A DNA stretch of 64,000 bases from Pseudarthrobacter sp. NS4 (GTDB lineage Bacteria; Actinomycetota; Actinomycetes; Actinomycetales; Micrococcaceae): contig NZ_CP103288.1 in NCBI RefSeq assembly GCF_024758005.1, positions 2,418,001 to 2,482,000 of the forward strand, given 5' to 3'. The number at the start of each line of letters is the position of its first letter. Position 1 is the first letter of the stretch. A program made the position numbers and the translations under genes. Shown piece by piece: positions 3,285 through 22,839 of this stretch. The notes under the pieces are model-generated. The model did not search any database and was not told the DNA's origin. It was given only the letters and a program-made list of their open reading frames with translations.

Positions 3285-4696
3285 AGCGGCGACAAGGACT
3301 GCACCCGTTGGCAGAGGGCGGCGAGAAACAGGGCTTCGGCAAGGATCGAATTTCGCAGTTCGCCCACGTGAACGGATTCGTTGGCTCCATGCGCACGCGA
3401 ATCGGGGTCTCTGGGTCCTGTCAGCAGGATGGAGCAGCCGGGATGGTGCCGGCTCAGCTCTGCCACGAACGGGACTGAGCCGCCAGTGCCTCTGGTCACC
3501 GCCTCGGTTCCCCATGCCGCCCCGAGTGCCCATAGGGCTGTCTGCGCCATCCGGTCGCGCGGCGCCATCGCGAAGGGCCTGGTCTTTGTGCCCGGAGTGA
3601 ATGTCACTTCGGCGCCAAAAGGGGCGTGCTTCAGGGTGTGCCGGCGGACCGCTTCCATGGCTTCGTCCGGGTCATTACCGGGCGGAATCCGGAGGCTGAA
3701 CTTAACGGCGGCCGCTGGAATCAGGGTGTTTGGAGCGGTTGCTATGGGCGGGGCATCCAGCCCGATGAAGGACAGCGCCGGCTGGCTCCACAGTCGGGAG
3801 TTGATCTTTCCTGCGCCCGCCAGCTGAATACCATCCGGGACGCCGGCATCACGCCGGAATTCCTCCTCCGAGAAATCCGGACCTTCGGTGCTTGTTGTTA
3901 CGAGGCCTTCGACGGCGACTGAACCATCATCGTGGTGGAAGGTGGCCATTAGGCGGGCAAGGACGGTGGGGGCATCCAGGGCGGGACCGCCGAAGCTGCC
4001 TGAATGCAGCGCATGATCCAGGGTTCGCACTTCGATGGTCCCGTCGACCAGTCCTCTCAGGCTGGTCGTGAGGGCAGGAGTTCCGATTTTCCAGCTGCCA
4101 GCGTCAGCAACGATGGCTGCCTCCGCCTGGAAACGTGGCTTATGCTGCCCAAGGAGGGCCGGCAGCGTGGGCGACCCCGATTCTTCTTCTCCTTCGATGA
4201 AGAAGGTCAGGCCCAGGCCGTTGCGCGATCCTAGGACTGCGTCCAGGGCGCGTACAGCAGCAACATGCATCAGGATTCCTGCCTTGTCATCGGCCGCTCC
4301 ACGCCCCCACAGGCGTCCATCCCTAACAAGAGCAACAAATGGGGAATTCTCCCATTCCTCGGCCGGGCCAGGCGGCTGGACGTCGTGGTGGGCATAGAGC
4401 AGCACCGTTGCCATGCCGGGAGCGGCAGGCCTCGCGGCGAAGACCCCGGGTGCCCCAGGTACGCCCGCCGGGTCGGTGGCGCGCATGATTTCCGCGTCAG
4501 CAAAACCTGTCTCACGGAGCAGCTCCCGGACGTTCCCCGCACTTTGCTCCAGGGCACTGGGCTCGAAGTCGGGCCAGGCGATGCCGGGTACTGCGACCAG
4601 CCCCGCCAGGACTTTCACTGTCACGGACATCCCGGCGTCAACGGCGGATGCCAGTCTTGCCACGGTTTCCCGTGGCAGCCTGCCTGCGTCTTTCAT
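3281..4696 (-). CDS. M20 family metallopeptidase (dipeptidase)
   Basis: A 471-residue cytoplasmic zinc peptidase of the M20/M25/M40 family, expected to hydrolyse short peptides or acylated amino acids. Hallmarks in order: LLYAHHDVQPPG (metal-binding His and Asp) near residue 85, GRGAADDKAG (metal Asp) near 110, EGEEESGSP (catalytic and metal Glu) near 150, VADAG near 180, a dimerisation lid in the middle, and the C-terminal metal His in GANESVHVGEL. The ATG at 4696 is preferred over an in-frame extension to 4792 that reads as basic non-coding sequence. The neighbouring genes are unrelated. Confidence 0.88.
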   Translation of the reverse strand: MKDAGRLPRETVARLASAVDAGMSVTVKVLAGLVAVPGIAWPDFEPSALEQSAGNVRELLRETGFADAEIMRATDPAGVPGAPGVFAARPAAPGMATVLLYAHHDVQPPGPAEEWENSPFVALVRDGRLWGRGAADDKAGILMHVAAVRALDAVLGSRNGLGLTFFIEGEEESGSPTLPALLGQHKPRFQAEAAIVADAGSWKIGTPALTTSLRGLVDGTIEVRTLDHALHSGSFGGPALDAPTVLARLMATFHHDDGSVAVEGLVTTSTEGPDFSEEEFRRDAGVPDGIQLAGAGKINSRLWSQPALSFIGLDAPPIATAPNTLIPAAAVKFSLRIPPGNDPDEAMEAVRRHTLKHAPFGAEVTFTPGTKTRPFAMAPRDRMAQTALWALGAAWGTEAVTRGTGGSVPFVAELSRHHPGCSILLTGPRDPDSRAHGANESVHVGELRNSILAEALFLAALCQRVQSLSPL

Positions 4697-5049
4697 GGGA
4701 CCATGGCTCCGACCGCGCCGCTTCGTGAATCGATAGAGATAAGCGTACTTCTCTTTTCGTTGTTGGAAGTAGTTGAATCTTTTCCGGCGCACTCGCTTAA
4801 GCCGACTCCTCGAAGTGGTGCCCGGAAGTCTGCTGGGGTTTTCGTGACAGGACTTCGCACCCGAAAATCATCATGGGCACAACCAGGACGGGCCGCTTCA
4901 GTGAACGGGTCGCCCCCTGGGTGCTGCAGCGGCTGACAGATTACGGATTCGATGTGCACCAGGCTAAAAGACGCCAGGACGTCCCGGTGCGACGCCGCGC
5001 AGGGTCCAGCCTTGGCCGGGCCGTCCCTGCTTTGTGCTTCTCATGTCTC
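4697..5049. other. Gap without a supported gene
   Basis: About 350 bases between the peptidase start and the end of the NmrA-like gene. It should hold the peptidase promoter near its left side. A plus-strand frame from 4873 and minus-strand frames exist but lack coding-type third positions; no repeat stands out. Confidence 0.4.
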
Positions 5050-5930
5050 CTACCTGGATGTGGTGGGGACCCAGACGTCGCGGTCACGGCGGGCGAACTC
5101 AGCGAAACTGGTCGGGTCCCTGCCAAGTACGTCGCGGACGGTGTCCGTCAAGCCAGCGGCGAGGCCAAGCCTCACAGTGGTGTAGATGGCTGCAGTGACA
5201 ATGGTCATGCCCCAGGGCATGCCCAGGGCCCGGCGGGCGTGCCGGAGGTAGCGGATCACGCCCGGACGGTTATACCGGACGGGCCCGCCGAGTTCCGCGG
5301 TCAGGATTAACGCAACCTGTTCATAGGTCAGCGCTTCGTTCCCCGTGACGGCCAAGGCAGTGTTGCGGTGCGCTTCCGGATGCAGCAGGGCTGCAGCAGC
5401 CACGGCACCAACGTCCACAGCATCGACAAAGGCGGTCGCGCCGTGGCCGGCCGGGACGACGAGTTCGTCACGGTCGCGGACGTCCGTGAGGTGTGTGCTC
5501 GAAAGGTTCTGATGGAAGAACGCAGCCCGCACGAACGTCCACTCGGCCCCGGACGCGCGGATCCACGATTCAATGCGGGCATACGGAACGAGTTTGTTCT
5601 TCTCCGCACCTTGAAGAGACAAGAACACTATCTGTTCCACGCCCTGGATGCGCGCGTACTCCAGGGCCGGAAGGATTTGTTTCCCCGGCTTGCCCAAATG
5701 GGGCGGGCGCAGGAGGAACATCCGGTCCACACCCGCGAACGCCCCAGCCCAGGTCGCCTTCCAGGTGAAGTCAAGGGCGACGGGCTCCACCCGGTCATCG
5801 AACATCCTCTGCACGGAGCCCGTGGTGCGCGCGGCGCGCGGACAGCACAGCCGGCGGCGAGCAGCTGATCGACCACGACACTACCGACATTGCCCGTAGC
5901 CCCCGTCACCAGAACTACCCTGTCCGCCAT
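5050..5930 (-). pseudogene. NmrA-type NAD(P)-binding protein, frameshifted
   Basis: The gene begins MADRVVLVTGATGNVGSVVV, a clear GxxGxxG Rossmann dinucleotide fold (residues 9-15), but this frame fails after about residue 31. The rest of the protein (RTTGSVQRMFDDRVEPVAL... FVDAVDVGAVAAAALL... TGNEALTYEQVA...) continues in another frame to the stop at 5050. The shift falls within the CG-repeat run around 5822-5842. The joined product would be about 290 residues, the normal size for NmrA/YtfG-like quinone oxidoreductases or redox sensors. Either the gene is inactivated or the GC run carries a sequencing error. Confidence 0.75.
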
Positions 5931-6366
5931 GCCCCTCTCCCACTTGTTCCTTCAGAACCAGTTGCGCAGAGTGTGATGATCCACTCGATGACTAATACAA
6001 CGCCGGTAACGTCAGGAACGGAAGCCCGCAGATCCCCTATCGGCGAACTTCCATTCCCAAGAGCACACTGACATGGACCGCGGCATCAACACCAGCAGGA
6101 TCAAGCGGACAGGGTACAAGCGGGCAGGCGCAACCGGCCGAAGACGATACCGTGGGGGCCCCAAACAGGCACCACCTATGTCCCCGAGGTCACCAGCGAA
6201 TACCCCTCGCCCGATACATTAATGTCGTCCGCGGGACCGGCATCCGTTCGATCCCAGGCGTACCCCTGTGGTTGGAGGAGGGGTCAACTGCGGCGGTGGT
6301 CTTGGTTTCGTCGGTCACCGGCTCATGCTATGTGTGGCGGGCCCCCAGCAGCCGTAGACTCGGCCC
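5931..6366. other. Gap without a supported gene; leaderless promoter at its end
   Basis: About 435 bases with no convincing ORF. The only clear signal is TAGACT at 6355-6360, a -10 element placed six bases before the ATG of the lipoprotein gene at 6367, consistent with leaderless transcription. Confidence 0.4.
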
Positions 6367-6891
6367 ATGAAGACGGGTTGGGGGATCCTGGGAGTGGCTG
6401 CGCTGGCCGCGGTCACGCTGCCGGCAGCGGGCTGCAGTACAGCGTGTCCGGCTATTGGCTACGTCAGCGGCATTGAGGTGATCGTTGAGGGCGACACGAC
6501 GCTAATCGACGAGGTTCAGCTGTGCACGGATGAGGGCTGCTCGGCGCCGGAACCCACCGCGGCACCTGTCCCTGCCCCGTCCGTGGCCGTCACCGATGAC
6601 TGGGTACAGCTACCTAATGGGGGCTTCTCCCCCGCTCCGGGTTCACGTGTCCAGCCGCCAACCTACCCCGACACCCACTACATCGGCAGCAGGAAGGAAG
6701 GCAATACCTGGAGGTTTACCGTCATCCTCGGCCCGGCACCAACCCGTATCACCTTGCGCGCTCTTGCTGAGGACGGCTCCTTGTTGGCCGAGCAGGTGAA
6801 CGACCTGGAATGGACCAGGGACGACCCGTTCAACCCCTGCCCGGGGCCGGTCACTACTCCCCCGGTCTTGTTCCTGGTGGGTGAACGATGA
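6367..6891 (+). CDS. Lipoprotein, unknown function
   Basis: A 174-residue protein with a lipoprotein signal: short n-region, hydrophobic core, and lipobox LPAAGC with Cys at about residue 23. The mature part has paired cysteines (LCTDEGCSAPE) and a beta-rich C-terminal domain (WRFTVILGPAPTRITLRAL). The start is supported by a -10 box (TAGACT, 6355-6360) only six bases upstream, suggesting a leaderless message. It is first of three tandem lipoprotein genes and overlaps the second by four bases (ATGA). No known family recognised. Confidence 0.75.
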   Translation: MKTGWGILGVAALAAVTLPAAGCSTACPAIGYVSGIEVIVEGDTTLIDEVQLCTDEGCSAPEPTAAPVPAPSVAVTDDWVQLPNGGFSPAPGSRVQPPTYPDTHYIGSRKEGNTWRFTVILGPAPTRITLRALAEDGSLLAEQVNDLEWTRDDPFNPCPGPVTTPPVLFLVGER

Positions 6892-10968: not shown

Positions 10969-11038
10969 CACAAGAGGAGGATTGTCGCACCCCGTCGCTA
11001 GGCTGATGGGACGACGATCACCACCGAAGGGGGCGGGC

Positions 11039-13102
11039 ATGGAAACATCAGGCGGGACTTTGCGCATGACGCTCTCCGACGTCGCCTCGCTTGCCCAGGT
11101 CCAGCGCCCGGTCGTCTCCATGTGGCGCAAGCGCAGCAGCACAGGCCCGCTGCCTTTCCCAGCAGCCGCGGCGACGCTTCAGGGAGTCGAAGTGTTCGAC
11201 GCCGATGAGGTCACCGCCTGGCTCCGGGCAACCGGCCGGGGCAACAACCCCGAGGCGCACAACGACGTCGCGGTTTACGCCAAGCTCATGGCGGGGGCAA
11301 GCGAAGCACCCCGGGACAGCCGCCATACCTTCGACGGCCTCACCTCGCTCCTAGCCCTGAAGGTCATTACTGGAAAAGCTCTCAGCCGAAGCAGCGGCGC
11401 GGAGCTTCTTGATGCTGCCGACGAGGCGGACCCGGACGACGTTTTCCTTTATTCCGAGCTGGAAGCCCTCGGTTCCGCGCTTCCAGGGCTGGCCAACTTC
11501 GCTGACAGACTGGCGGACAGTGCTTTCAGTGCGTCGGCAGCGTTCGAGAAGCTGCTGGGCCACCGATTCAAGGAAGGCCTGCGCGAGCACGCAGACACCG
11601 CGCTGACGGACGCCGCACTTAAACTCGTCGCTGCCGCAGCCATCGAACTCGCCTCCACCCTGGACGGCAAGGCCCTGTTCGTCGATTCCACTCCCGGTGG
11701 AAGTGACGTGATGCTCAGCATCGTGCAGCGGTTCGGCGAATCAGCGCCGGTCACCTTCCTGGCAGCGGACCACGACGGCGGCGCCTCACGGTTGGCGCGC
11801 CGGCGCCTCGCGGTGCATGGCACGGAGAGCGGACCGGTGAAGGTCGACGCCAAGGGTGCCTTTGCCGTCAACGGCCCGGCTATACACGTCGCGCAGTACC
11901 CCGCTCCGGGCGCTCCCGCCCTAGGCACCACCGGCGTTCTGTCCGGCATTGAGAACATCGTGCTGCAGATGGATGACTCCCAGCGGGCGGTGGTCGTCGC
12001 TCCTGCCCGGGTGCTCTGTGACGCCCTGGCCGGAGAACCGGGCAACCTCCGCTCGGATCTCCTGCGGTCCGGCCGCGTGCGTGCCATCGTCCGGCTTCGG
12101 CCCGGGATGCTTCGCGCCAAACCGCGGGAACCGCAGGCACTGTGGGTACTGGGCCCGTCCCTTGCGGACGTGCCCATCGCCGAACGGTGGACCATGGTGG
12201 CGGACCTGAGCACCACGCCGCTCACCCTCGACGTGAGCCAGGACCTGATCAGCGATGTCGCCGCCTCCATGGGTGACCGTGCCACCATCCGCGCCCACTC
12301 CTTCAGGTTCGCCCGGCTGGTCCAGACCCGCATCCTGCTCGCCGGCACCGGCGCACTCGTCAGCGTCCCTCCCGGAAGAAGTACGACGGCGGCAGCCGGC
12401 GCCGAAGGAGCGCTTCGGATTGATGAACTCGTCCGCGCCCTGTCCTCCCCGGCGGCCGAGCCGTCAGCACTGCCGGCCGTTCTGCCCAGCGATTCCAACG
12501 CCCCGTTCCCTCCTGCTACGGTCCAGGAGCTCATCAACTCCGGAAACCTCAAGTACCTCAAAGGCATCCGCGTTGAAGAAGCTGACCTCAACGGCAAGAC
12601 CGGAACCAAGATCCTGGGCCGCGAGGAACTGATGGACCCGCACACCGCACCACAGCGGTTCATCACCCTCCTGGACTTCGCCGCGAAGTACCCGGCAGGG
12701 CGCCTCACCGAACCGGGTGACGTCGTCTTCTGTACCAGCCCGCGGCCCGCCGCCATGGTGGACGCGGAGGGCGGCGCCGTCGTCGTCTTTCCTGCCCGGA
12801 TCCTGAGGATTGACGCCGGTGACCCGGGCGGCTTGATGTCCGACGTCGTCGCCGCTGACATCAACGGCCTCAACCCAGCGGACAAAACCTGGCGCAAATG
12901 GCACCTTCGCCGCACACCGGAAGTCCAGCGCCAGCCACTGGCGAAGGCCCTGCAAACCCTGCAACACGAGCAGGCCCAAGCCCGTGAACGCGTCAAACAA
13001 CTGGAAGAACTCGCTACCCTGATTACGGACGGCGTAGCGGGCGGAAGCCTTACCCTGACAGACCCCATTTCCATCGCCGCACCAGAAGAAGGAACAGCAT
13101 AA
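11039..13102 (+). CDS. HTH + degenerate N6-methyltransferase + specificity-like fusion protein
   Basis: A 687-residue protein that opens the type I restriction operon. Residues 10-60 form a helix-turn-helix/excisionase-like domain (TLSDVASLAQVQRPVVSMWRKR). Residues about 75-440 align by eye with the HsdM encoded next door: DSTPGGSDVML (216-226) in place of DPCCGSGGMFV, LAADHDGGASRLARRRLAVHG in place of YGQELNERTWRMAKMNLAIHG, and AQYPAPG (285-291) where catalytic NPPF should be. It therefore should not methylate DNA. Residues about 495-620 resemble a target-recognition domain, and 640-675 a coiled coil. The ATG at 11039 follows GGGGGCGGG. The stop overlaps hsdM (TAATG). It may be a DNA-binding regulator or accessory subunit. 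Confidence 0.75.
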   Translation: METSGGTLRMTLSDVASLAQVQRPVVSMWRKRSSTGPLPFPAAAATLQGVEVFDADEVTAWLRATGRGNNPEAHNDVAVYAKLMAGASEAPRDSRHTFDGLTSLLALKVITGKALSRSSGAELLDAADEADPDDVFLYSELEALGSALPGLANFADRLADSAFSASAAFEKLLGHRFKEGLREHADTALTDAALKLVAAAAIELASTLDGKALFVDSTPGGSDVMLSIVQRFGESAPVTFLAADHDGGASRLARRRLAVHGTESGPVKVDAKGAFAVNGPAIHVAQYPAPGAPALGTTGVLSGIENIVLQMDDSQRAVVVAPARVLCDALAGEPGNLRSDLLRSGRVRAIVRLRPGMLRAKPREPQALWVLGPSLADVPIAERWTMVADLSTTPLTLDVSQDLISDVAASMGDRATIRAHSFRFARLVQTRILLAGTGALVSVPPGRSTTAAAGAEGALRIDELVRALSSPAAEPSALPAVLPSDSNAPFPPATVQELINSGNLKYLKGIRVEEADLNGKTGTKILGREELMDPHTAPQRFITLLDFAAKYPAGRLTEPGDVVFCTSPRPAAMVDAEGGAVVVFPARILRIDAGDPGGLMSDVVAADINGLNPADKTWRKWHLRRTPEVQRQPLAKALQTLQHEQAQARERVKQLEELATLITDGVAGGSLTLTDPISIAAPEEGTA

Positions 13103-14730
13103 TGCCCCCGAAAGTGAAGGTGGACCTTGCCCCGTCCACCATGAAGGAACTCAAGGACACCCTCTGGAAGGCGGCGGACAAGCTCCGCGGTTCGATGGAT
13201 GCCTCGCAGTACAAGGATGTGATCCTGGGGCTGGTGTTCCTGAAGTACGTGTCGGACGCGTTCGAGGAGCGGCGCGGGCAGATCCAAGCGGAGCTGGAGG
13301 CCGACGGGCTCAACGAGGAGCAGATCGCCCAACTGATCGACGACGTGGACGAGTACACAGGCCGCGGCGTCTTCTGGGTATCGCCCCGGGCGCGCTGGAC
13401 CTACCTTGCGGAGAACGCCAAGGGCCTGGATGCGGTGGACGGCGCGGCGCCGAAGTCCATCGGGCTGCTGATCGATGAGGCGATGGAGCTCATCATGGCC
13501 GACAACAAGAGCCTGGCCGCGACGCTCCCCAAGATCTACAACCGGGACAACGTAGACCAGCGCCGCCTGGGCGAGCTGCTGGACCTGTTCAACTCAGCAC
13601 GCTTCACCGGGCAGGGCGCCAGCAAGGCCCGCGACCTGCTCGGCGAGGTGTACGAGTACTTCCTGGAGAAGTTCGCCAAGGCCGAGGGCAAGCGCGGCGG
13701 CGAGTTCTATACTCCGGCCGGCGTGGTCCGCGTTCTGGTGGAGGTGCTGGAACCGCACCGCGGACGGGTCTACGACCCGTGCTGCGGCTCGGGCGGCATG
13801 TTCGTGCAGGCGGAGAAGTTCCTGGCCGCGCACCATTTAGAGGGCTCGGACATCTCCGTGTACGGTCAGGAGCTGAACGAGCGCACCTGGCGAATGGCCA
13901 AGATGAACCTGGCCATCCACGGCCTGAACGCCAACCTGGCCTCGCGTTGGGGCGACACGTTCGCGCGCGACCAGCACCCGGAACTGACCGGGAACAACGG
14001 CGCGGACTTCATCATGGCCAACCCGCCGTTCAACATCAAGGACTGGGCCCGCTCCGAGTCCGATCCGCGCTGGAAGTACGGCGTCCCGCCGGCCGGCAAC
14101 GCCAACTACGCCTGGATCCAGCACATCATTTCGAAGCTGGCGCCGGGCGGCAGCGCCGGCGTGGTGATGGCCAACGGCTCCATGTCCTCCAACTCCGGCG
14201 GCGAGGGCGAGATCCGCGCCCAACTGGTGGAGGCCGACCTCGTCTCCTGCATGGTGGCGTTGCCCACGCAGCTGTTCCGCAGCACCGGCATCCCGGTGTG
14301 CACCTGGTTCTTCGCGAAGGACAAGACCGCGGGACCCCGTGGCTCGGTGGACCGGACCGGGCAGGTGCTCTTTATCGACGCCCGAAACCTCGGGTACATG
14401 GTGGATCGCGCCGAGCGCGGCCTGTCCGACGAAGACATCGCCAAGATCGCCAACACGTACCACGCCTGGCGGGGCACCGCTTCTGCAGTGGAGGCAGGAC
14501 TGACGTACGACGACGAGGCGGGCTTCTGCTACTCGGCAAGCCTTGCGGAGGTCAAGGCTGCGGATTATGCGTTGACGCCTGGGCGTTATGTCGGAGCGGC
14601 GGATGTCGAGGACGACGGCGAGCCGATCGAGGAGAAGATCGCGCGGCTATCCAAGGAATTGCTGGAACAGTTCGACGAGTCCGAGAGGTTGGCGGCCCTC
14701 GTGCGCGAGCAGTTGGGGAGGGTGTCGTGA
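13102..14730 (+). CDS. hsdM: Type I restriction-modification methyltransferase subunit HsdM
   Basis: A 542-residue adenine-N6 DNA methyltransferase subunit. Residues 10-150 are the helical N-terminal HsdM domain (KAADKLRGSMDASQYKDVILGLVFLKYVSD). S-adenosylmethionine motif I DPCCGSGGMF begins at D225, and catalytic motif IV NPPF is at 307-310. It acts with HsdS to methylate target sites and with HsdR to restrict unmodified DNA. It is translationally coupled at both ends: its ATG overlaps the upstream stop and its own stop overlaps the hsdS start (GTGA). The size is normal for the family. Confidence 0.95.
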   Translation: MPPKVKVDLAPSTMKELKDTLWKAADKLRGSMDASQYKDVILGLVFLKYVSDAFEERRGQIQAELEADGLNEEQIAQLIDDVDEYTGRGVFWVSPRARWTYLAENAKGLDAVDGAAPKSIGLLIDEAMELIMADNKSLAATLPKIYNRDNVDQRRLGELLDLFNSARFTGQGASKARDLLGEVYEYFLEKFAKAEGKRGGEFYTPAGVVRVLVEVLEPHRGRVYDPCCGSGGMFVQAEKFLAAHHLEGSDISVYGQELNERTWRMAKMNLAIHGLNANLASRWGDTFARDQHPELTGNNGADFIMANPPFNIKDWARSESDPRWKYGVPPAGNANYAWIQHIISKLAPGGSAGVVMANGSMSSNSGGEGEIRAQLVEADLVSCMVALPTQLFRSTGIPVCTWFFAKDKTAGPRGSVDRTGQVLFIDARNLGYMVDRAERGLSDEDIAKIANTYHAWRGTASAVEAGLTYDDEAGFCYSASLAEVKAADYALTPGRYVGAADVEDDGEPIEEKIARLSKELLEQFDESERLAALVREQLGRVS

Positions 14731-15857
14731 CAACCGGACGAGCAAGCACCCTGAATCAATTCTTAGAGTTCAGGAACGGCAAAACATCTCCTGACCGGAC
14801 TGGCGAGGGGGCCTATGCAGTCTTTGGCTCAAATGGGGAGATAGGTAGATCAGACTCCACTAATGCGTCGGGCCCGCTGGTCGTCATTGGTCGCGTCGGA
14901 TCCTACTGCGGAAGTCTTTTCTACTCAGAAACCGACGCATGGGTCACTGATAACGCCATTGTTTGTTCGTCCAAGGATTCGAAGGACGTTCGCTACTGGT
15001 ACTACGCTCTGCAGACGTTAGATCTCAACGGAAGAAGTTCCGGGTCGGGCCAGCCCCTCTTGAATCAAAGTGTCCTCGGCGCCATCGCGTTTGATCCTCC
15101 GGAAATGGACGCGAGGCAGGCCATCGCAGAAGTTCTAGGCGCCCTCGACGACAAGATCGCCGCCAACATCAAACTCGCTGCCAGTTTGACGGGCTTACTC
15201 GATGCACAGTTCGAGCAGTTGGGGGTTAATTGCGAACCTCAAGATGATAGCCAGATCGTTTCTCTAGATGAGCTCATTGAGCTGAATCCAAAAGTAGCTG
15301 CCCCGAAGGAAGCAGAGCCGGTCTACGTCGACATGCAAAAACTGCCCACAGCCGGAATGAGTATCAGCGGGTGGGAGCGTCGCCCTGCCAAGGGTGGGGC
15401 AAGGTTTATGAATGACGACACCTTGATGGCCAGGATCACGCCCTGTTTGGAGAACAGGAAGACCGGGTTCGTGGATTTTCTGCCGGATGGTGAAGCAGCC
15501 ATCGGCTCTACGGAATTCATCGTCATGCGTTCCCGCCCCGGCATCCCGAAGCAACTGTCCTACTTTCTTGCCACTAGCGAACGGTTCAGAACCTATGCGA
15601 TTCGCCACATGGTCGGCACGTCAGGACGGCAGCGCGTCTCAGCGCTCAACCTAGCCGGATATGCCGTTTCGAAGCCAGATCCGGAAGCGCTTGCACGCTT
15701 CGGAGAGATCAGCACGGCCCACTTCAAGCTACTTAAGTCCCTGACTGACGAGAACCGCACCCTCGCAGCGACGCGTGACACACTCCTCCCTGAGATGATT
15801 TCCGGCAAGCTCCGGGTCAAGGATGCGGACAGGGTCCTAGAGGACGCCGAGGTGTAG
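14727..15857 (+). CDS. hsdS: Type I restriction-modification specificity subunit HsdS
   Basis: A 376-residue specificity subunit, starting at a GTG that overlaps the hsdM stop, with GGGGAGGG just upstream. It has the two-half layout of HsdS: target-recognition domain 1 (about 5-130), conserved helix 1 (ARQAIAEVLGALDDKIAANIKLAASL, about 130-160), domain 2 (about 180-320) and conserved helix 2 (FGEISTAHFKLLKSLTDENRTLAATRDTLLPEMISGKLRV). GC and codon bias are lower than in hsdM and hsdR, as expected for a subunit that exchanges recognition domains. An open frame extending upstream to 13779 is a shadow of hsdM. Confidence 0.92.
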   Translation: MTTGRASTLNQFLEFRNGKTSPDRTGEGAYAVFGSNGEIGRSDSTNASGPLVVIGRVGSYCGSLFYSETDAWVTDNAIVCSSKDSKDVRYWYYALQTLDLNGRSSGSGQPLLNQSVLGAIAFDPPEMDARQAIAEVLGALDDKIAANIKLAASLTGLLDAQFEQLGVNCEPQDDSQIVSLDELIELNPKVAAPKEAEPVYVDMQKLPTAGMSISGWERRPAKGGARFMNDDTLMARITPCLENRKTGFVDFLPDGEAAIGSTEFIVMRSRPGIPKQLSYFLATSERFRTYAIRHMVGTSGRQRVSALNLAGYAVSKPDPEALARFGEISTAHFKLLKSLTDENRTLAATRDTLLPEMISGKLRVKDADRVLEDAEV

Positions 15858-15944: not shown

Positions 15945-18900
15945 GTGACAGCACCAGCAGTGGCCTTTTCGGAAGCCGACTGGGAGGGCGCCGCGAAGGA
16001 GCGGCTCGGCGAGCTGGACTGGAAGCCCTTGGAGGGCCAGTCGATTGCGCCCGGCTCCGGGGAACGCGATTCGTGGTCCGAGCTTCTGATCCGGCCCCGC
16101 CTGCTCGCCGCCCTCCAGCGCCTCAATCCCGCCGTTCCCGCCCAGTACCTCCAGCAGGCACTGGCGGAAATCGCATCGCCCAAGTCGAACGACGCGATGG
16201 CCGAGAACCACCGCATCCACAACTGCCTCGTCGACGGCTACCGGCTGACCTACATCGACTCCGACGGCAACGAAGCCAACCCGACCATCCGGCTGGTCAG
16301 CCAGGCACCGGACCAGAACGACTGGCTCGCCGTCAACCAGGTCACCCTGGTGCAGGGCGACTACAAACGGCGCTTCGACGTCGTGCTCTACTGCAACGGC
16401 ATGCCCGTCAGCATCATCGAACTCAAGAAGGCCGGCAGCGCCCACGCCGACCTCCCCGGCGCCCACGCCCAGCTCCAGACCTACCTCCGCGAATTCCCCA
16501 TGGCGTTCCGCTTCTGCGTCTTCACCCTCGCCAGCGACGGGATCCAGGCCAAGTACGGTACGCCATTCACCCCTTTCAACCACTTCTCACCGTGGAATGT
16601 AGACGACGACGGCGTCCCCGTCCCCCAGGGCTACATGCTCGACGGCGATGCCGTCACCGCACTCGACACTGCGCTTGATGGCCTCTACAACCAGGAACGC
16701 TTCCTGCAGCTCACCCGCAACTTCACCGCCTTCGACCAGGGCCCCGGCGGTTTGGCAAAACGCATTGCCAAGCCGCACCAGTACTACGCCGTGACAAAGG
16801 CGGTCGCCAGCACCATCCAGGCCGTGGAAAGCAACGGCAAGGCCGGCGTCGTCTGGCACACCCAAGGCTCCGGCAAGTCCATGGAAATGGAACTGTATGC
16901 CAACATGGTGGCGCGTGCACCCAAGCTGAAGAACCCCACCGTCGTGGTCATCACCGACCGGAACGAGCTCGACGGCCAGCTGTATGAAGGCTTCGACCGC
17001 AGCCTGCTCCTCGCCGAATCGCCCAAGCAGATCAGGAAGCGCTCCGAACTGCGCGATGAGTTAAGCAACCGGACAACAGGCGGCATCTACTTCACCACCC
17101 TGCAGAAATTCGGCCGGAGCAAGTCCGAGAAGGACGCCGGCGCCGACCACCCGCTGCTGTCCGACCGGCGCAACATCATCGTGGTGGTGGACGAGGCGCA
17201 CCGCTCGCACTATGACGACCTGGACGGCTACGCCCGCCACCTGCGCGACGCACTCCCCCATGCCACGTTGATCGCATTCACCGGAACTCCGATCTCTTTC
17301 GATGACCGGAACACCCAGGACGTCTTCGGCGACTACATCGACATCTACGACCTGTCTCGGGCTGTGGAAGACGGCGCGACTGTGCCCGTGTACTTCGAGC
17401 CGCGGCTGATCAAGGTGGAACTTTCCGAAGGTGTCACGGAAGAGGACCTGGACAAATCCGCCGACGAACTGACCCTCGGCCTGGACGATACGGAACGTGC
17501 GCGCATCGAGGCGAGCGTCGCCGTCGTCAACGCCGTCTATGGTGCGCCGCAGCGCATCGCCGCGCTGGCCGAGGACCTGGTGGCGCACTGGGAAAACCGG
17601 CGCGAGCGGATGGGCAAGTTCATCGAGGCGCCGGGCAAGGCGATGATCGTGGGCGGGACGCGGGAGATCTGCGCGAAGCTGTACGCCGCGATTGTGGAGC
17701 TGCGCCCGGACTGGCATTCGGACGACCTGTCGAAGGGCAGGATCAAGGTGGTGTTCTCGGGCGATGCGACCGATGTGCCGCCGGTGTCCGACCATGTGCG
17801 CCGGGATTCGCTGAATGCCCAGGTCAAGGAGCGCCTCAAGAACGTCGACGACGAGCTGGAACTGGTCATCGTCAAGGACATGATGCTCACCGGCTACGAC
17901 TCTCCCCCGCTGCACACCCTGTACCTGGACCGACCCCTCAAGGGCGCGCTGCTCATGCAGACTCTGGCACGGGTGAACCGCACGTTCCGCGGCAAGGAGG
18001 ACGGGCTGCTGGTGGCGTACGCGCCGCTGGCAGAGAACCTTGCGAAGGCGCTGGGCGAGTACACGCAGTCGGACCGGGCGAACAAGCCGGTGGGCAAGAA
18101 CATCGACGAGGCCGTTGGGCTGACGGTTTCCCTGGTGGAGACGCTCCGCTCGCTGCTGGCCGGGTACGACTGGAAAGCCGTGCTGATGAAGGGCGGACCG
18201 AAGTCGTTCGTCAACGCAGTGACCGGAGCGGTCAGTTATCTGCGGAATCCTGCCACGCCGGGCAACCAGCCGGCGGACGGCGAAGAGTCGGTTGCAGCGA
18301 AGTACCGCAAGTTCTCCAGCCAGCTGTCCCGCGCATGGGCGCTGTGCTCCGGATCCGAGACGCTGGCTGAGCTGCGCCCCGAGATCCAGGTGTACGAGGA
18401 GATCCGCGTCTGGATGGCGAAGTACGACGCCGCCGACCGGCAGGCGAGCGGTGAGCCGGTGCCTGAGGAGATTCAGCGGCTGCTGGGGAACCTGATTGCG
18501 CAGGCGACGTCGTCCGGCGAGGTGCTGGACATCTACGACGCCGCCGGCATGCCGAAGCCGTCCCTGGATGACCTGACGCCGGAGTTCATTGCTAAGACCC
18601 AGAAGGCGCGGAACCCGCAACTGGCCATCGAGGCACTACGGAAGCTCATTGCCGATGAGTCCGCTTCCTCTACTCGGAACAACGTCATCCGGCAGCGGGC
18701 GTTCTCGGAGCGGATCACGGAGCTGATGAAGAAGTACACGAACCAGCAGTTAACGTCGGCTGAGGTGATTGCCGAGCTGGTGGAGCTGGCGCGTGAAGTG
18801 GCTGCTGAAGGCAAGCGCGGTGAGCAGTTCACTCCCCCACTGACTTCAGACGAGCTCGCATTCTACGATGCCGTGGCGCAGAACGAGTCTGCCGTGCAGG

Positions 18901-19133
18901 TCCAGGGCGAAGGCGTTCTGGCCGACATTGCGCGCGAGCTGGTTTCGGTGATGCGACGTGACGTGCGGACCGACTGGACTGTACGTGACGACGTTCGCGC
19001 CAAGCTGCGATCTTCGATCAAGCGACTTCTGGTCCGGTTTGGATACCCACCGGACAAGCAGCCCGAGGCCATCAAACTTGTCATGGAGCAGATGGAGTCC
19101 ATGGCGCCGCGTTTTGCCGAGAGCAGCGCATAA
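15945..19133 (+). CDS. hsdR: Type I restriction endonuclease subunit HsdR
   Basis: A 1062-residue translocating endonuclease, the motor and nuclease of the type I complex. The N-terminal nuclease domain (about 1-250) includes RFDVVLYCNGMPVSIIELKKAG, with the E-x-K core of PD-(D/E)XK nucleases. The SF2 helicase part has Walker A TQGSGKS (GSGKS at 308-312) and DEAH at 416-419, then helicase C-terminal motifs around MLTGYDSPPLHTLYLDRPLKGALLMQTLARVNR. The C-terminal helical region should contact HsdM/HsdS. Start at GTG 15945 with GGGGGAA upstream. It is separated from hsdS by 87 bases containing a strong hairpin. Confidence 0.95.
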   Translation: MTAPAVAFSEADWEGAAKERLGELDWKPLEGQSIAPGSGERDSWSELLIRPRLLAALQRLNPAVPAQYLQQALAEIASPKSNDAMAENHRIHNCLVDGYRLTYIDSDGNEANPTIRLVSQAPDQNDWLAVNQVTLVQGDYKRRFDVVLYCNGMPVSIIELKKAGSAHADLPGAHAQLQTYLREFPMAFRFCVFTLASDGIQAKYGTPFTPFNHFSPWNVDDDGVPVPQGYMLDGDAVTALDTALDGLYNQERFLQLTRNFTAFDQGPGGLAKRIAKPHQYYAVTKAVASTIQAVESNGKAGVVWHTQGSGKSMEMELYANMVARAPKLKNPTVVVITDRNELDGQLYEGFDRSLLLAESPKQIRKRSELRDELSNRTTGGIYFTTLQKFGRSKSEKDAGADHPLLSDRRNIIVVVDEAHRSHYDDLDGYARHLRDALPHATLIAFTGTPISFDDRNTQDVFGDYIDIYDLSRAVEDGATVPVYFEPRLIKVELSEGVTEEDLDKSADELTLGLDDTERARIEASVAVVNAVYGAPQRIAALAEDLVAHWENRRERMGKFIEAPGKAMIVGGTREICAKLYAAIVELRPDWHSDDLSKGRIKVVFSGDATDVPPVSDHVRRDSLNAQVKERLKNVDDELELVIVKDMMLTGYDSPPLHTLYLDRPLKGALLMQTLARVNRTFRGKEDGLLVAYAPLAENLAKALGEYTQSDRANKPVGKNIDEAVGLTVSLVETLRSLLAGYDWKAVLMKGGPKSFVNAVTGAVSYLRNPATPGNQPADGEESVAAKYRKFSSQLSRAWALCSGSETLAELRPEIQVYEEIRVWMAKYDAADRQASGEPVPEEIQRLLGNLIAQATSSGEVLDIYDAAGMPKPSLDDLTPEFIAKTQKARNPQLAIEALRKLIADESASSTRNNVIRQRAFSERITELMKKYTNQQLTSAEVIAELVELAREVAAEGKRGEQFTPPLTSDELAFYDAVAQNESAVQVQGEGVLADIARELVSVMRRDVRTDWTVRDDVRAKLRSSIKRLLVRFGYPPDKQPEAIKLVMEQMESMAPRFAESSA

Positions 19134-19264
19134 ATGAGGTGTTGCCACATTTCACGTTGCTCATGCCCACGTTCGTCGCGATCAAAAGTGCGCCTGGTCC
19201 TAGGTAGAGGCAGACCGTCTGACACGAAGATGCCGCCAGATATAGTCGCATCAAAGCATTCGCA

Positions 19265-19270
19265 TAGGCT
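19265..19270 (+). promoter_or_regulatory. -10 box for the gene at 19304
   Basis: TAGGCT matches the TANNNT -10 seen elsewhere in this window and would give a leader of about 27 nt. No clear -35 is visible. It suggests the ATPase gene can be transcribed independently of the hsd operon. Confidence 0.35.
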
Positions 19271-19303
19271 CGTTCCTCCCAGCAAAGTGAAAGCAAGTAA
19301 CGG

Positions 19304-21673
19304 ATGAAATCGATCTTCTTTGGATATCCAGAACGGCCCCACTCACAGGCAGAGTCCATGCGGACTACCGCCCGCCTGCTGATGGAACAAGGGTATGCAG
19401 AAACTGCGACCTGGGAGGCCCTAAGTGTAGGGGGCACCGTCGTCATTGACGAGGTGCTCAATGCCATCGACGAAGCGGACATGTGTGTTTTTGACATCAC
19501 TAGCATGAACCCGAATGTCCTCTTCGAAACGGGCTATGCCATCAGTCGCGGCAAGCAGGTCTGGCTGACGATCGACAGCTCCATACAAGCAGCATTCCCA
19601 TTGTGGAAAGAATTTTCGCTCCTCGGTCCCTTAGGCTTCACCCCCTACCGAAACAGTAATGAGTTGGTTAGCGAATTTCTAAGGGATGATCCGCTAGAAA
19701 CATTGGTGCCGATTTACGACTCGCTTATTGAACCCAGCCTTCCCGATACATCACTGCCTCGTCGTTCGATTTTGTACTGCACTACTTTCGAACCATTCGA
19801 GGCTTCAAATCGGCTCGATAATTTCATTGATGAAAGAAAGCAAAAAGGGCTGAATGTACTTGTTTCTGACCCCAAAGAGTCCAGCCTAAACCCAATCAAC
19901 TGGTATGCGCCGATTTTGCTTCGCTCCGCCGGCGTGCTGATCAGCTTCTCCGGAGCGCAACGGAACAAAGCCGAAATCCACAATAAGCGCCACTCATTAG
20001 TGGCGGGTCTGGCGGCAGGCTTCGAGATACCCATCCTATTGGTCGCAGAGAATGACTACCTAGCTCCATTTGATTACGAGTATCGGCTTCACACTTACGA
20101 TTCAAGCGATGAGTGCGTCGGTATCGCACGTAAATGGCTCAACAGCCTAGAGTTCGAACGCATATCATGGAAGAATGCACGTAGTGGCGTTTCAAACCGG
20201 CTAAAGCAAATCCGCTTTGGCGAACATGTAGCAGAAAATGAAAGCGACAGCCTCGGAGATTACTTCATCGAGACCGCAGCATATGGAGACGTCGTCCTCG
20301 CCCGTAATGCGATATTTATCGGGCACCGCGGGACGGGCAAAACAGCAAATGCCCTGCAGGCCTTTGTCGCGGTTAAGGAAAACAAGAACAACCTTGCAGT
20401 TCTAATCAAGCCGCCTGGGTTCGAATTTTCAGCAATTATGCATCTGGTAAGCAAACTACCAAGAGTCCAACACGAATATTTCTTCGACGCATTGTGGCGG
20501 TTTGTCGTGCAGACGGAGATAAGCAGCGCGGTCCTGAAGAGTATCGAGGACAGGCTATCAGGCGTGCCTCGGACCCAAGCGGAATCAGAGTTTGTTAATT
20601 ATGTAGACGGCACCCCCTTCAACATACGATCCGACATCTCGGTCCGCATTGATCAGGCTCTAGATGCCCTCCTCCTCACTCTCGGGGACACGACGACACT
20701 CGAAACGAACCGCGACCACATAAACGAAGCATTTCATTCAAATGCTCTTGCCGAGCTGCGTCATAATCTTGGGCCCGTACTCAAAGATCGTACGCGAGTT
20801 GCTGTGTTTGTCGATAATTTGGACAAAGGATGGGAAAAGGGTGCTGATTTCAATGTGATGGCACGCTTCATATTGGGGCTCCTGGTCGCAGAGGGGCGAC
20901 TGGCTCAAGACTTCGCTCGGCACGATTCTTGGCGGGATAAGATCAAATTGACTGTAGCTATCTTCCTCCGCAGTGATATATACACTTACTTGGCAATCGA
21001 AGCGCGAGAACCCGACAAGCTCCCTATTTCAACTGTCGTATGGAGAGACAGGCAGACGTTACTTTCGGTGATTGAAGAACGTTTCTTGGCGAGCCGTTAT
21101 AGTCGCGGCGACTCCGAGGAGCTATGGACTCAGTATTTCTGCGGGACGGTCAGCGGCATCGGCGTCAAGGAATACCTCGGGAAGGTTGTCTTGCCTCGTC
21201 CGCGAGACATCGTCTACTTCTGCAATGCTGCTGTGGGAAGAGCCATAGACAGACGCCATGAGAGGGTTGAAGAAGATGATTTCCTGGCAGCGGAGGAGAC
21301 ATATTCGCGATACGCGTACGAAGCCCTTTTGGTTGAGAACGGAGTAACGATTCCAGAAATGGAAGAAGCTCTTTTCGGTTTTCTCGGCTGCAGGCACATT
21401 CTCAGCGTAGGTGAAGCAAAACGAGCTATCCTTAACGCTGGCGTCGCCGACTCCCGCGTTGACGCACTACTAAGAAAACTTGTATCCATGTCGTTCCTTG
21501 GGATTGAAACGCGACAAGGCGAATTCACGTATCCCGAAGCGGGAATCGACCTAAAAAGAAGTATGAAACTGGCTAGTATTTTGGAGCCCTCAACTGAATC
21601 CCAGAGAGTCGCTGTTCATCCAGCCTTCTTCAACTTCCTTGCTGTGGAACGGAACGCTACTGAAGGAATTTAG
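19304..21673 (+). CDS. Two TIR/nucleoside-hydrolase-like domains fused to an Sll1717-type P-loop ATPase
   Basis: A 789-residue protein. Residues 1-130 (MKSIFFGYPERP...EADMCVFDITSM, then NPNVLFETGYA at 69-79 with a likely active Glu at 75) resemble the nucleoside deoxyribosyltransferase/TIR-like NAD-hydrolase fold. Residues about 150-275 look like a second, related fold ending in HNKRHSLVAGLAAGFEIPILLV and LAPFDYEYRL. Residues about 305-700 carry a P-loop ATPase: FGEHVAENESD, Walker A GHRGTGKT (340-347), Walker B-like VFVDNLD (D504, D507). The last 80 residues look like a winged helix. GC is clearly lower than its neighbours, implying transfer. The position beside a type I restriction locus suggests an antiphage sensor-effector; this is inference. 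Confidence 0.8.
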   Translation: MKSIFFGYPERPHSQAESMRTTARLLMEQGYAETATWEALSVGGTVVIDEVLNAIDEADMCVFDITSMNPNVLFETGYAISRGKQVWLTIDSSIQAAFPLWKEFSLLGPLGFTPYRNSNELVSEFLRDDPLETLVPIYDSLIEPSLPDTSLPRRSILYCTTFEPFEASNRLDNFIDERKQKGLNVLVSDPKESSLNPINWYAPILLRSAGVLISFSGAQRNKAEIHNKRHSLVAGLAAGFEIPILLVAENDYLAPFDYEYRLHTYDSSDECVGIARKWLNSLEFERISWKNARSGVSNRLKQIRFGEHVAENESDSLGDYFIETAAYGDVVLARNAIFIGHRGTGKTANALQAFVAVKENKNNLAVLIKPPGFEFSAIMHLVSKLPRVQHEYFFDALWRFVVQTEISSAVLKSIEDRLSGVPRTQAESEFVNYVDGTPFNIRSDISVRIDQALDALLLTLGDTTTLETNRDHINEAFHSNALAELRHNLGPVLKDRTRVAVFVDNLDKGWEKGADFNVMARFILGLLVAEGRLAQDFARHDSWRDKIKLTVAIFLRSDIYTYLAIEAREPDKLPISTVVWRDRQTLLSVIEERFLASRYSRGDSEELWTQYFCGTVSGIGVKEYLGKVVLPRPRDIVYFCNAAVGRAIDRRHERVEEDDFLAAEETYSRYAYEALLVENGVTIPEMEEALFGFLGCRHILSVGEAKRAILNAGVADSRVDALLRKLVSMSFLGIETRQGEFTYPEAGIDLKRSMKLASILEPSTESQRVAVHPAFFNFLAVERNATEGI

Positions 21674-21729
21674 TTTTTGATTCTCCGAAGGCCATTAGTC
21701 GCCTGGTCGGGATGAAGCCCAAGGTAACC

Positions 21730-21767
21730 GGAGCCCTGTGCTGCACTGTATTGCAGAACAGGGCTCC
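21730..21767. terminator. Likely shared hairpin terminator between convergent genes
   Basis: GGAGCCCTGT (21730-21739) pairs with ACAGGGCTCC (21758-21767), and the loop holds a second pairing, CTGCA with TGCAG. It sits between the convergent ATPase gene and nrdF. Poor T tracts make efficiency uncertain. Confidence 0.55.
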
Positions 21768-21831
21768 TGCTTCAATCAGTTGCATCAGTCCCGGGAGCGT
21801 TATTCGCAAGTAAGACGGAGAGGCAAGAAAC

Positions 21832-22839
<1,008 letters not shown>

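Follow-up and report, generated by a model that had tools for sequence, protein, structure and literature searches.

The window analysed here, 64,000 nucleotides of Pseudarthrobacter sp. NS4 (contig NZ_CP103288.1), contains between a type I restriction-modification (RM) operon and nrdF an open reading frame (ORF) of 789 amino acids that is best explained, and with reasonable confidence, as a one-gene anti-phage system, in which an ATPase switch would gate an N-glycosidase that cuts NAD+ in preference to a deoxynucleotide, so that infected cells stop or die. The protein is composed of three modules, namely a domain resembling DNPH1 and the nucleoside deoxyribosyltransferases (NDT), a second Rossmann-type domain lacking the catalytic glutamate, and an ATPase of the Sll1717 family, STAND-like by its model, ending in a winged helix. 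The first-pass annotation, which was made from the sequence alone, named the motifs NPNVLFETGYA with Glu75, GHRGTGKT (340–347) and VFVDNLD (with D504 and D507), and all are found at the places it gave. It also suggested that the layout could be an undescribed abortive-infection system, and no description of the three-module architecture was found in the literature searched.

The AlphaFold2 model of residues 1–298 (pLDDT 93.2, pTM 0.91) consists of two consecutive alpha/beta domains of the Rossmann type. The first is nearest to DNPH1 and the NDTs, with DNPH1 as the top match by both sequence and fold, which bears out the expected fold of the nucleoside-hydrolase/TIR type, and the catalytic glutamate of DNPH1, which we take to be Glu104, aligns with Glu75. 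Conservation was read from an alignment of the window protein with 76 intact relatives (77 rows), all of 740 residues or more with both ends closed and drawn from 101 loci (80 from genomes and 21 viral), after removal of 12 copies that were interrupted or truncated (L052, L069, L071, L072, L074, L076, L078, L080, L081, L087, L090 and L091) and of 13 viral loci limited to the ATPase (L113–L125). Two plasmid copies outside this set, one with an in-frame stop (L012) and one in two pieces (L015), were likewise excluded. For the structure alignments, the full-length one (A4) was made from 58 of the 76 relatives and A3 from all of them. Glu75 is kept in every row, and so is N71, over the 19 phylum-level groups that the relatives span. 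Pfam model PF05014 (Nuc_deoxyrib_tr) matches 61 of the 77 N-termini at E ≤ 0.01, the best at 1.9e-8, and PF10137 (CAP12-PCTIR_TIR) 10 at the same threshold, while DUF4062 has no match in the window protein and one among the family rows. A cysteine motif similar to CQYASGPCD precedes domain 1 in a subgroup of relatives (L086, L088, L089, L106 and L112), and more loosely in L079.

Domain 2 has its secondary structure elements ordered similarly to those of domain 1 in the model, and the two related folds of the first-pass annotation are thus present in series, but their mutual relation by sequence is weak (hhalign E 0.008 for the single comparison, probability 5%). In this weak alignment the counterpart of E75 is V233 (V 35, I 21, L 11 and F 4 of 77), and to call the pair a double nucleotide-cleaving effector is therefore misleading. 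Other residues of the domain are well conserved (of 77 rows, D189 in 67, E192 in 68, N227 in 64, G235 in 77, P255 in 74 and D257 in 76), and for each of the seven closely related pairs compared, domain 2 shows less nonsynonymous divergence (pN) than domain 1, for instance 0.169 against 0.191 for the window protein and L002, 0.069 against 0.089 for L055 and L056, and 0.003 against 0.027 for L048 and L051. Domain 2 is therefore probably a functional pseudo-enzyme rather than a decaying copy. Purifying selection acts on all three modules.

The ATPase module belongs to the Sll1717 family as had been proposed, since NF047389 (Sll1717-family P-loop ATPase) matches residues 305–779 over model positions 1–454 with 255.8 bits, well over its cut-off of 75. 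The model of the DS41_1 antiphage protein, NF053860, reaches 42 bits with a cut-off of 370, and both models (454 and 448 positions respectively) match the ATPase module only. The full-protein model (pLDDT 90.2, pTM 0.85) gives in VIA-align the order Sso1545 with 13.9 (4.8 Å, 317 aligned), RPP1 with 13.7 (410 aligned), NRC4 with 13.6 (5.4 Å, 321), CED-4 with 13.2 (5.1 Å, 310) and Cdc6 with 12.7 (6.3 Å, 277), where the rmsd of 17.3 in the RPP1 match indicates that domains are displaced. By best match in VIA-align the modelled ATPase resembles those of STAND/NLR proteins, with Orc/Cdc6 near, whereas Foldseek puts Cdc6 first, so that a STAND-type ATPase is probable and an Orc/Cdc6-type one a close competitor. 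The C-terminal elements of the model (helices 686–691, 702–711 and 716–728, strands 699–701, 732–737 and 740–742) fit a winged helix, in agreement with the earlier suggestion.

The ORF starts 170 bp past hsdR and ends 158 bp short of the 3' end of nrdF, which lies on the opposite strand. The 3' side of nrdF was compared across 25 other genomes of the genus (in L174 the region ends at 6.8 kb with the contig), and the same RM operon is located beside nrdF in five of them, L149, L156, L161, L172 and L178. The window gene is absent from these five, and all of them have other cargo in the interval from hsdR to nrdF (10 selected slot proteins scanned): a SMODS cyclase (PADLOC E 6.9e-151) with a Sa_NUDIX/2TM effector (CBASS) in L156; PDC-M07A/B, 8xMP and a ThsB-like TIR protein in L149; PDC-M06B (1.8e-13) in L161; a DUF4365 protein with a weak Argonaute-associated PADLOC match (2.5e-8) in L178; and in L172 a ParE toxin recognized by Pfam, with no PADLOC match. 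In the 20 genomes that lack the RM operon, the 60 proteins encoded closest to nrdF (three per genome) give few strong PADLOC matches, with one each to a type I methylase, PDC-S02 and Tmn, besides weaker general AAA-type matches in two or three, among the 25 of 87 families listed. Since the five relatives carry other defence cargo here and such genes are few near nrdF in the controls, the space is a defence cargo slot, and the window gene occupies it (19134–21831, from hsdR to nrdF). The gene is also compositionally foreign, with a GC content of 0.509 compared to 0.644 in hsdR and 0.584 in nrdF, as the first-pass annotation had noticed, and a GC at third codon positions of 0.551 compared to 0.848 and 0.865 respectively.

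From the architecture, the conservation, the fold similarities and the location in the defence slot we infer the following course of events. The ATPase and winged helix would keep the protein off, presumably in an ADP state, until a phage-linked trigger leads to nucleotide exchange and oligomerisation, as the fold suggests. This would bring the N-terminal domains together and thereby turn on the N-glycosidase site of Glu75 in domain 1. Domain 2 would be a partner without catalysis of its own, which might complete or regulate the site like the second protomer in the DNPH1 and NDT dimers. The enzyme would then cut the N-glycosidic bond of a nucleotide, more likely NAD+ than a deoxynucleotide, and the infected cell would stop growing or die by abortive infection. 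A bolder version, possible but doubtful, is a minimal NLR-like immune protein without sensor repeats, present in 19 phylum-level groups. Its dead and live DNPH1-type halves would imitate the DNPH1 homodimer, the live half having lost the general acid and become a NADase and the dead half having become a nucleotide sensor that signals infection, and the STAND-type ATPase would couple them.

A number of results weigh against the proposed anti-phage function. The Pfam domain scores of the protein are under the curated cut-offs, with 24.5 bits for PF05014 over residues 1–142 (gathering cut-off 28.8) and 18 bits for PF10137 (24.7), and the PADLOC match to TIR is weak (E 0.0011). The protein ends at the winged helix in the full model, with no sensor repeat domain (LRR, TPR or WD40). 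N6-methylase matches within 15 kb of the gene were found in 3 of 40 genomes (G702, G718 and G727; hand count among the matches listed) with about one expected, and PADLOC matches show no clear excess in 142 immediate neighbours over 104 genes at distances above 6 kb. The defence setting claimed in the first-pass annotation consequently holds in that relatives keep defence cargo in the slot, but the counts do not establish RM proximity as a general property of the family. The 77-row tree requires 23 changes among the 19 groups, where the least possible is 18 and the shuffled mean 48.8, and being mostly sorted by phylum, which is not the pattern of a gene that moves freely, it suggests limited spread between phyla. 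Within the window's own taxonomic family the gene is patchy in its presence. Where DNPH1 chemistry is assumed, there is also the position of DNPH1 Asp80, located via the D80A chain 8rpt, which is hydrophobic in 76 of 77 rows (I 55, V 21, T 1); the role of this residue is presumably that of acid/base.

NAD+ is favoured because Asp80 is absent, and deoxynucleotide cleavage should for the same reason not be assumed. That domain 1 of the same ATPase-gated defence protein instead hydrolyses (modified) deoxynucleoside 5'-monophosphates, such as 5-hydroxymethyl-dUMP, and so hits phage DNA synthesis, is unlikely: DNPH1, a 5-hydroxymethyl-dUMP N-hydrolase by PDB entry name, is the top match by sequence and fold and its catalytic glutamate is conserved, but the Asp80 position is hydrophobic, F5 would correspond to DNPH1 Tyr24 by the range offset of the fold match, and the sole NDT-like defence effector met in the literature consulted has a link to NAD+, by a title cited in the available part of PMC12887533. 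TIR, DrHyd and SLOG domains can make signals according to the accessible text of PMC9503650, and domain 1 might make one, for instance a cyclic ADP-ribose isomer, that acts on an effector encoded elsewhere; we find this improbable, as each Pfam family among the 142 immediate neighbours is shared by 4 of them at most, so that no recurrent partner was seen. Equally little weight is given to a reading in which domain 1 is inert and the ATPase senses nucleotides in some regulatory or DNA-linked function, its winged helix binding DNA as in Orc/Cdc6. Foldseek ranks Cdc6 first, Orc/Cdc6 is close behind the STAND/NLR proteins that VIA-align puts best, the best Pfam match of the ATPase, below threshold, is ORC-CDC6-like, and the missing Asp80 would fit as well, but the invariance of Glu75 and N71 over so many groups and the position in the defence slot argue against it.

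The ATPase-gated N-glycosidase that we favour has parts in common with several known systems. DNPH1/Rcl and the nucleoside 2-deoxyribosyltransferases (DrHyd) have the fold of domain 1 and the catalytic glutamate in the same motif, but the 789-residue protein differs in the hydrophobic Asp80 position, the second domain without glutamate and the fused ATPase. Plant TNLs (e.g. RPP1), which are STAND/NLR proteins with TIR, have a similar N-terminal TIR-like fold, a winged helix and an NB-type ATPase that the present one probably resembles, whereas the present protein has no C-terminal sensor repeats and is by sequence of the NDT/DNPH1 type and not TIR. The part of PMC9503650 available places TIR, DrHyd and SLOG together in a single clade, where DrHyd members are NADases or cyclases. 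The Retron-Eco1 effector is also NDT-like and acts in defence, polymerising into filaments, with NAD+ hydrolysis named in a cited title, but in the accessible text of PMC12887533 it is a retron component with no ATPase fusion. Swarozyc, in the portion of PMC13174449 available, is a DUF4062 TIR-like NADase against phage and likewise a glutamate enzyme related to TIR/NDT with an auxiliary domain, but DUF4062 is absent from the window protein. DrHyd N-terminal to a STAND-like module is known from fusions to iSTAND, described in the accessible part of PMC7159879 within vWA-MoxR ternary systems, whereas the ATPase of the window protein keeps its Walker motifs. Related ATPase modules are found in the Sll1717 family (NF047389) and in DS-41 (NF053860), the latter by name, from which we infer that NCBIfam DS41_1 is the DS-41 of DefensePredictor; in the text available from PMC13092281, DS-41 belongs to a set of 42 systems that were validated, and it has homologues in Halobacteria. 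The combination of a TIR-like enzyme with a STAND-type ATPase is a known principle, and new here are the pairing with a glutamate-less half, the missing aspartate and the absent sensor repeats. If the reading is true, a large family, mostly labelled hypothetical protein in plasmid records, can be predicted to be an immune system of one gene, with candidate catalytic (E75) and switch (K346) residues and a pseudo-enzyme partner domain. The TIR-plus-NLR logic would then also apply in the deoxyribosyltransferase branch of the superfamily, and it would have to be asked in what way an ATPase of this kind detects infection when it has no sensor repeats.

Table 1. Location of the ORF, its modules and conserved residues, and the adjacent genes in the window (conservation in alignment rows).
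Feature	Position	Strand	Remarks
706-aa gene	10982..13102	+	unknown family, directly before hsdM
hsdM	13102..14730	+	type I RM
hsdS	14727..15857	+	type I RM; start approximate
hsdR	15945..19133	+	type I RM
Promoter-like site CTGACA-16-TATAGT	19219..19246	+	10/12; hsdR/ORF gap; not above chance
789-aa three-module ORF	19304..21673	+	ATG start
Domain 1, residues 1–134	19304..19705	+	DNPH1/NDT-like, N-glycosidase-type fold
Glu75	19526..19528	+	predicted catalytic; 77/77; family alignment, DNPH1 match
Domain 2, residues 155–281	19766..20146	+	second Rossmann-type domain; model, hhalign, alignment
P-loop ATPase core, residues 300–680	20201..21343	+	Sll1717 family, STAND/NLR-like; NF047389, fold matches
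Walker A GHRGTGKT, 340–347	20321..20344	+	G340, G343, G345, K346 in 77/77; alignment
Walker B-like DNLD, 504–507	20813..20824	+	D504, D507 in 77/77; alignment
R556-x-D558	20969..20977	+	both 77/77; alignment; presumably sensor-1-like
RPR, 632–634	21197..21205	+	P633, R634 in 77/77, R632 in 76/77; alignment; position taken to resemble GLPL region of NB-ARC
Winged-helix-like tail, residues 686–779	21359..21640	+	structure model
nrdF	21832..22806	-	right border of cargo slot; 26/26 genus genomes

The type I restriction locus noted earlier lies directly upstream of the ORF as hsdM, hsdS and hsdR, preceded by a 706-residue gene. This gene accompanies the RM operon in the five relatives too, at 50–79% identity, and might encode an additional subunit of the RM system. 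In L161 (3269–6482) the operon has an internal deletion, by which the first part of the 706-residue gene is joined to the final two thirds of hsdR, and hsdM and hsdS are gone, and in L176 (2957–4021), a genome without the RM operon, a different HsdM-like methylase (24% identity) is located about 2 kb from nrdF. The -10 box ascribed to the ORF does belong to a promoter-like site, but the scan gave four such sites compared to 2.3 ± 1.4 in shuffled sequences, so it is not beyond chance. The genes on the other strand 3' of the ORF are presumably nrdF, nrdE and related genes.

At least 317 genome loci were confirmed, of which 80 were kept, and the relatives are of uniform length (743–816 residues). 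In plasmid records, where the family is mostly annotated as hypothetical protein, 14 of 18 matches cover at least 80% of the protein, near-copies of one plasmid among them, and 8 of the 21 viral-contig loci (L105–L112) span both N-terminal modules and the ATPase. The window's own taxonomic family has a full or nearly full-length copy in 3 of 295 genomes (G000, G141 and G266), and in G266 its start codon overlaps by one base the stop of a 961-residue gene, whose NPPF motif suggests a DNA methyltransferase. A TPR-S (PF20308) protein, a possible sensor partner, is encoded downstream of the full-length copy on viral contig L107 (12588–13841).

The ATPase also occurs in other settings. NF047389 matches at E 1e-15 or below in 34 of 398 Pseudomonadota genomes, 30 of them over the cut-off. 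The 30 loci inspected in this phylum comprise four with the NDT pair (one being the centre genome), one with a nuclease-like C-terminus, four with an N-terminal extension of about 430 residues (L202, L203, L205 and L206), 20 with the ATPase alone or partial, and L210, a weak ATPase match with a C-terminus that in our reading may be cyclase-like. Matches to Sll1717-type ATPases were found in 8 of 246 Actinomycetota genomes, the window's included, and in none of 14 control genomes. A nuclease-like C-terminal region with xxECKNY/FEIKNY is present in the Sll1717-family ATPases of L117, L120, L124 and L186, three of which were compared with Pfam and gave no match. On viral contig L123 a stand-alone Sll1717 ATPase (3907–6875) is encoded on one strand, and genes that by eye are phage baseplate-like on the other.
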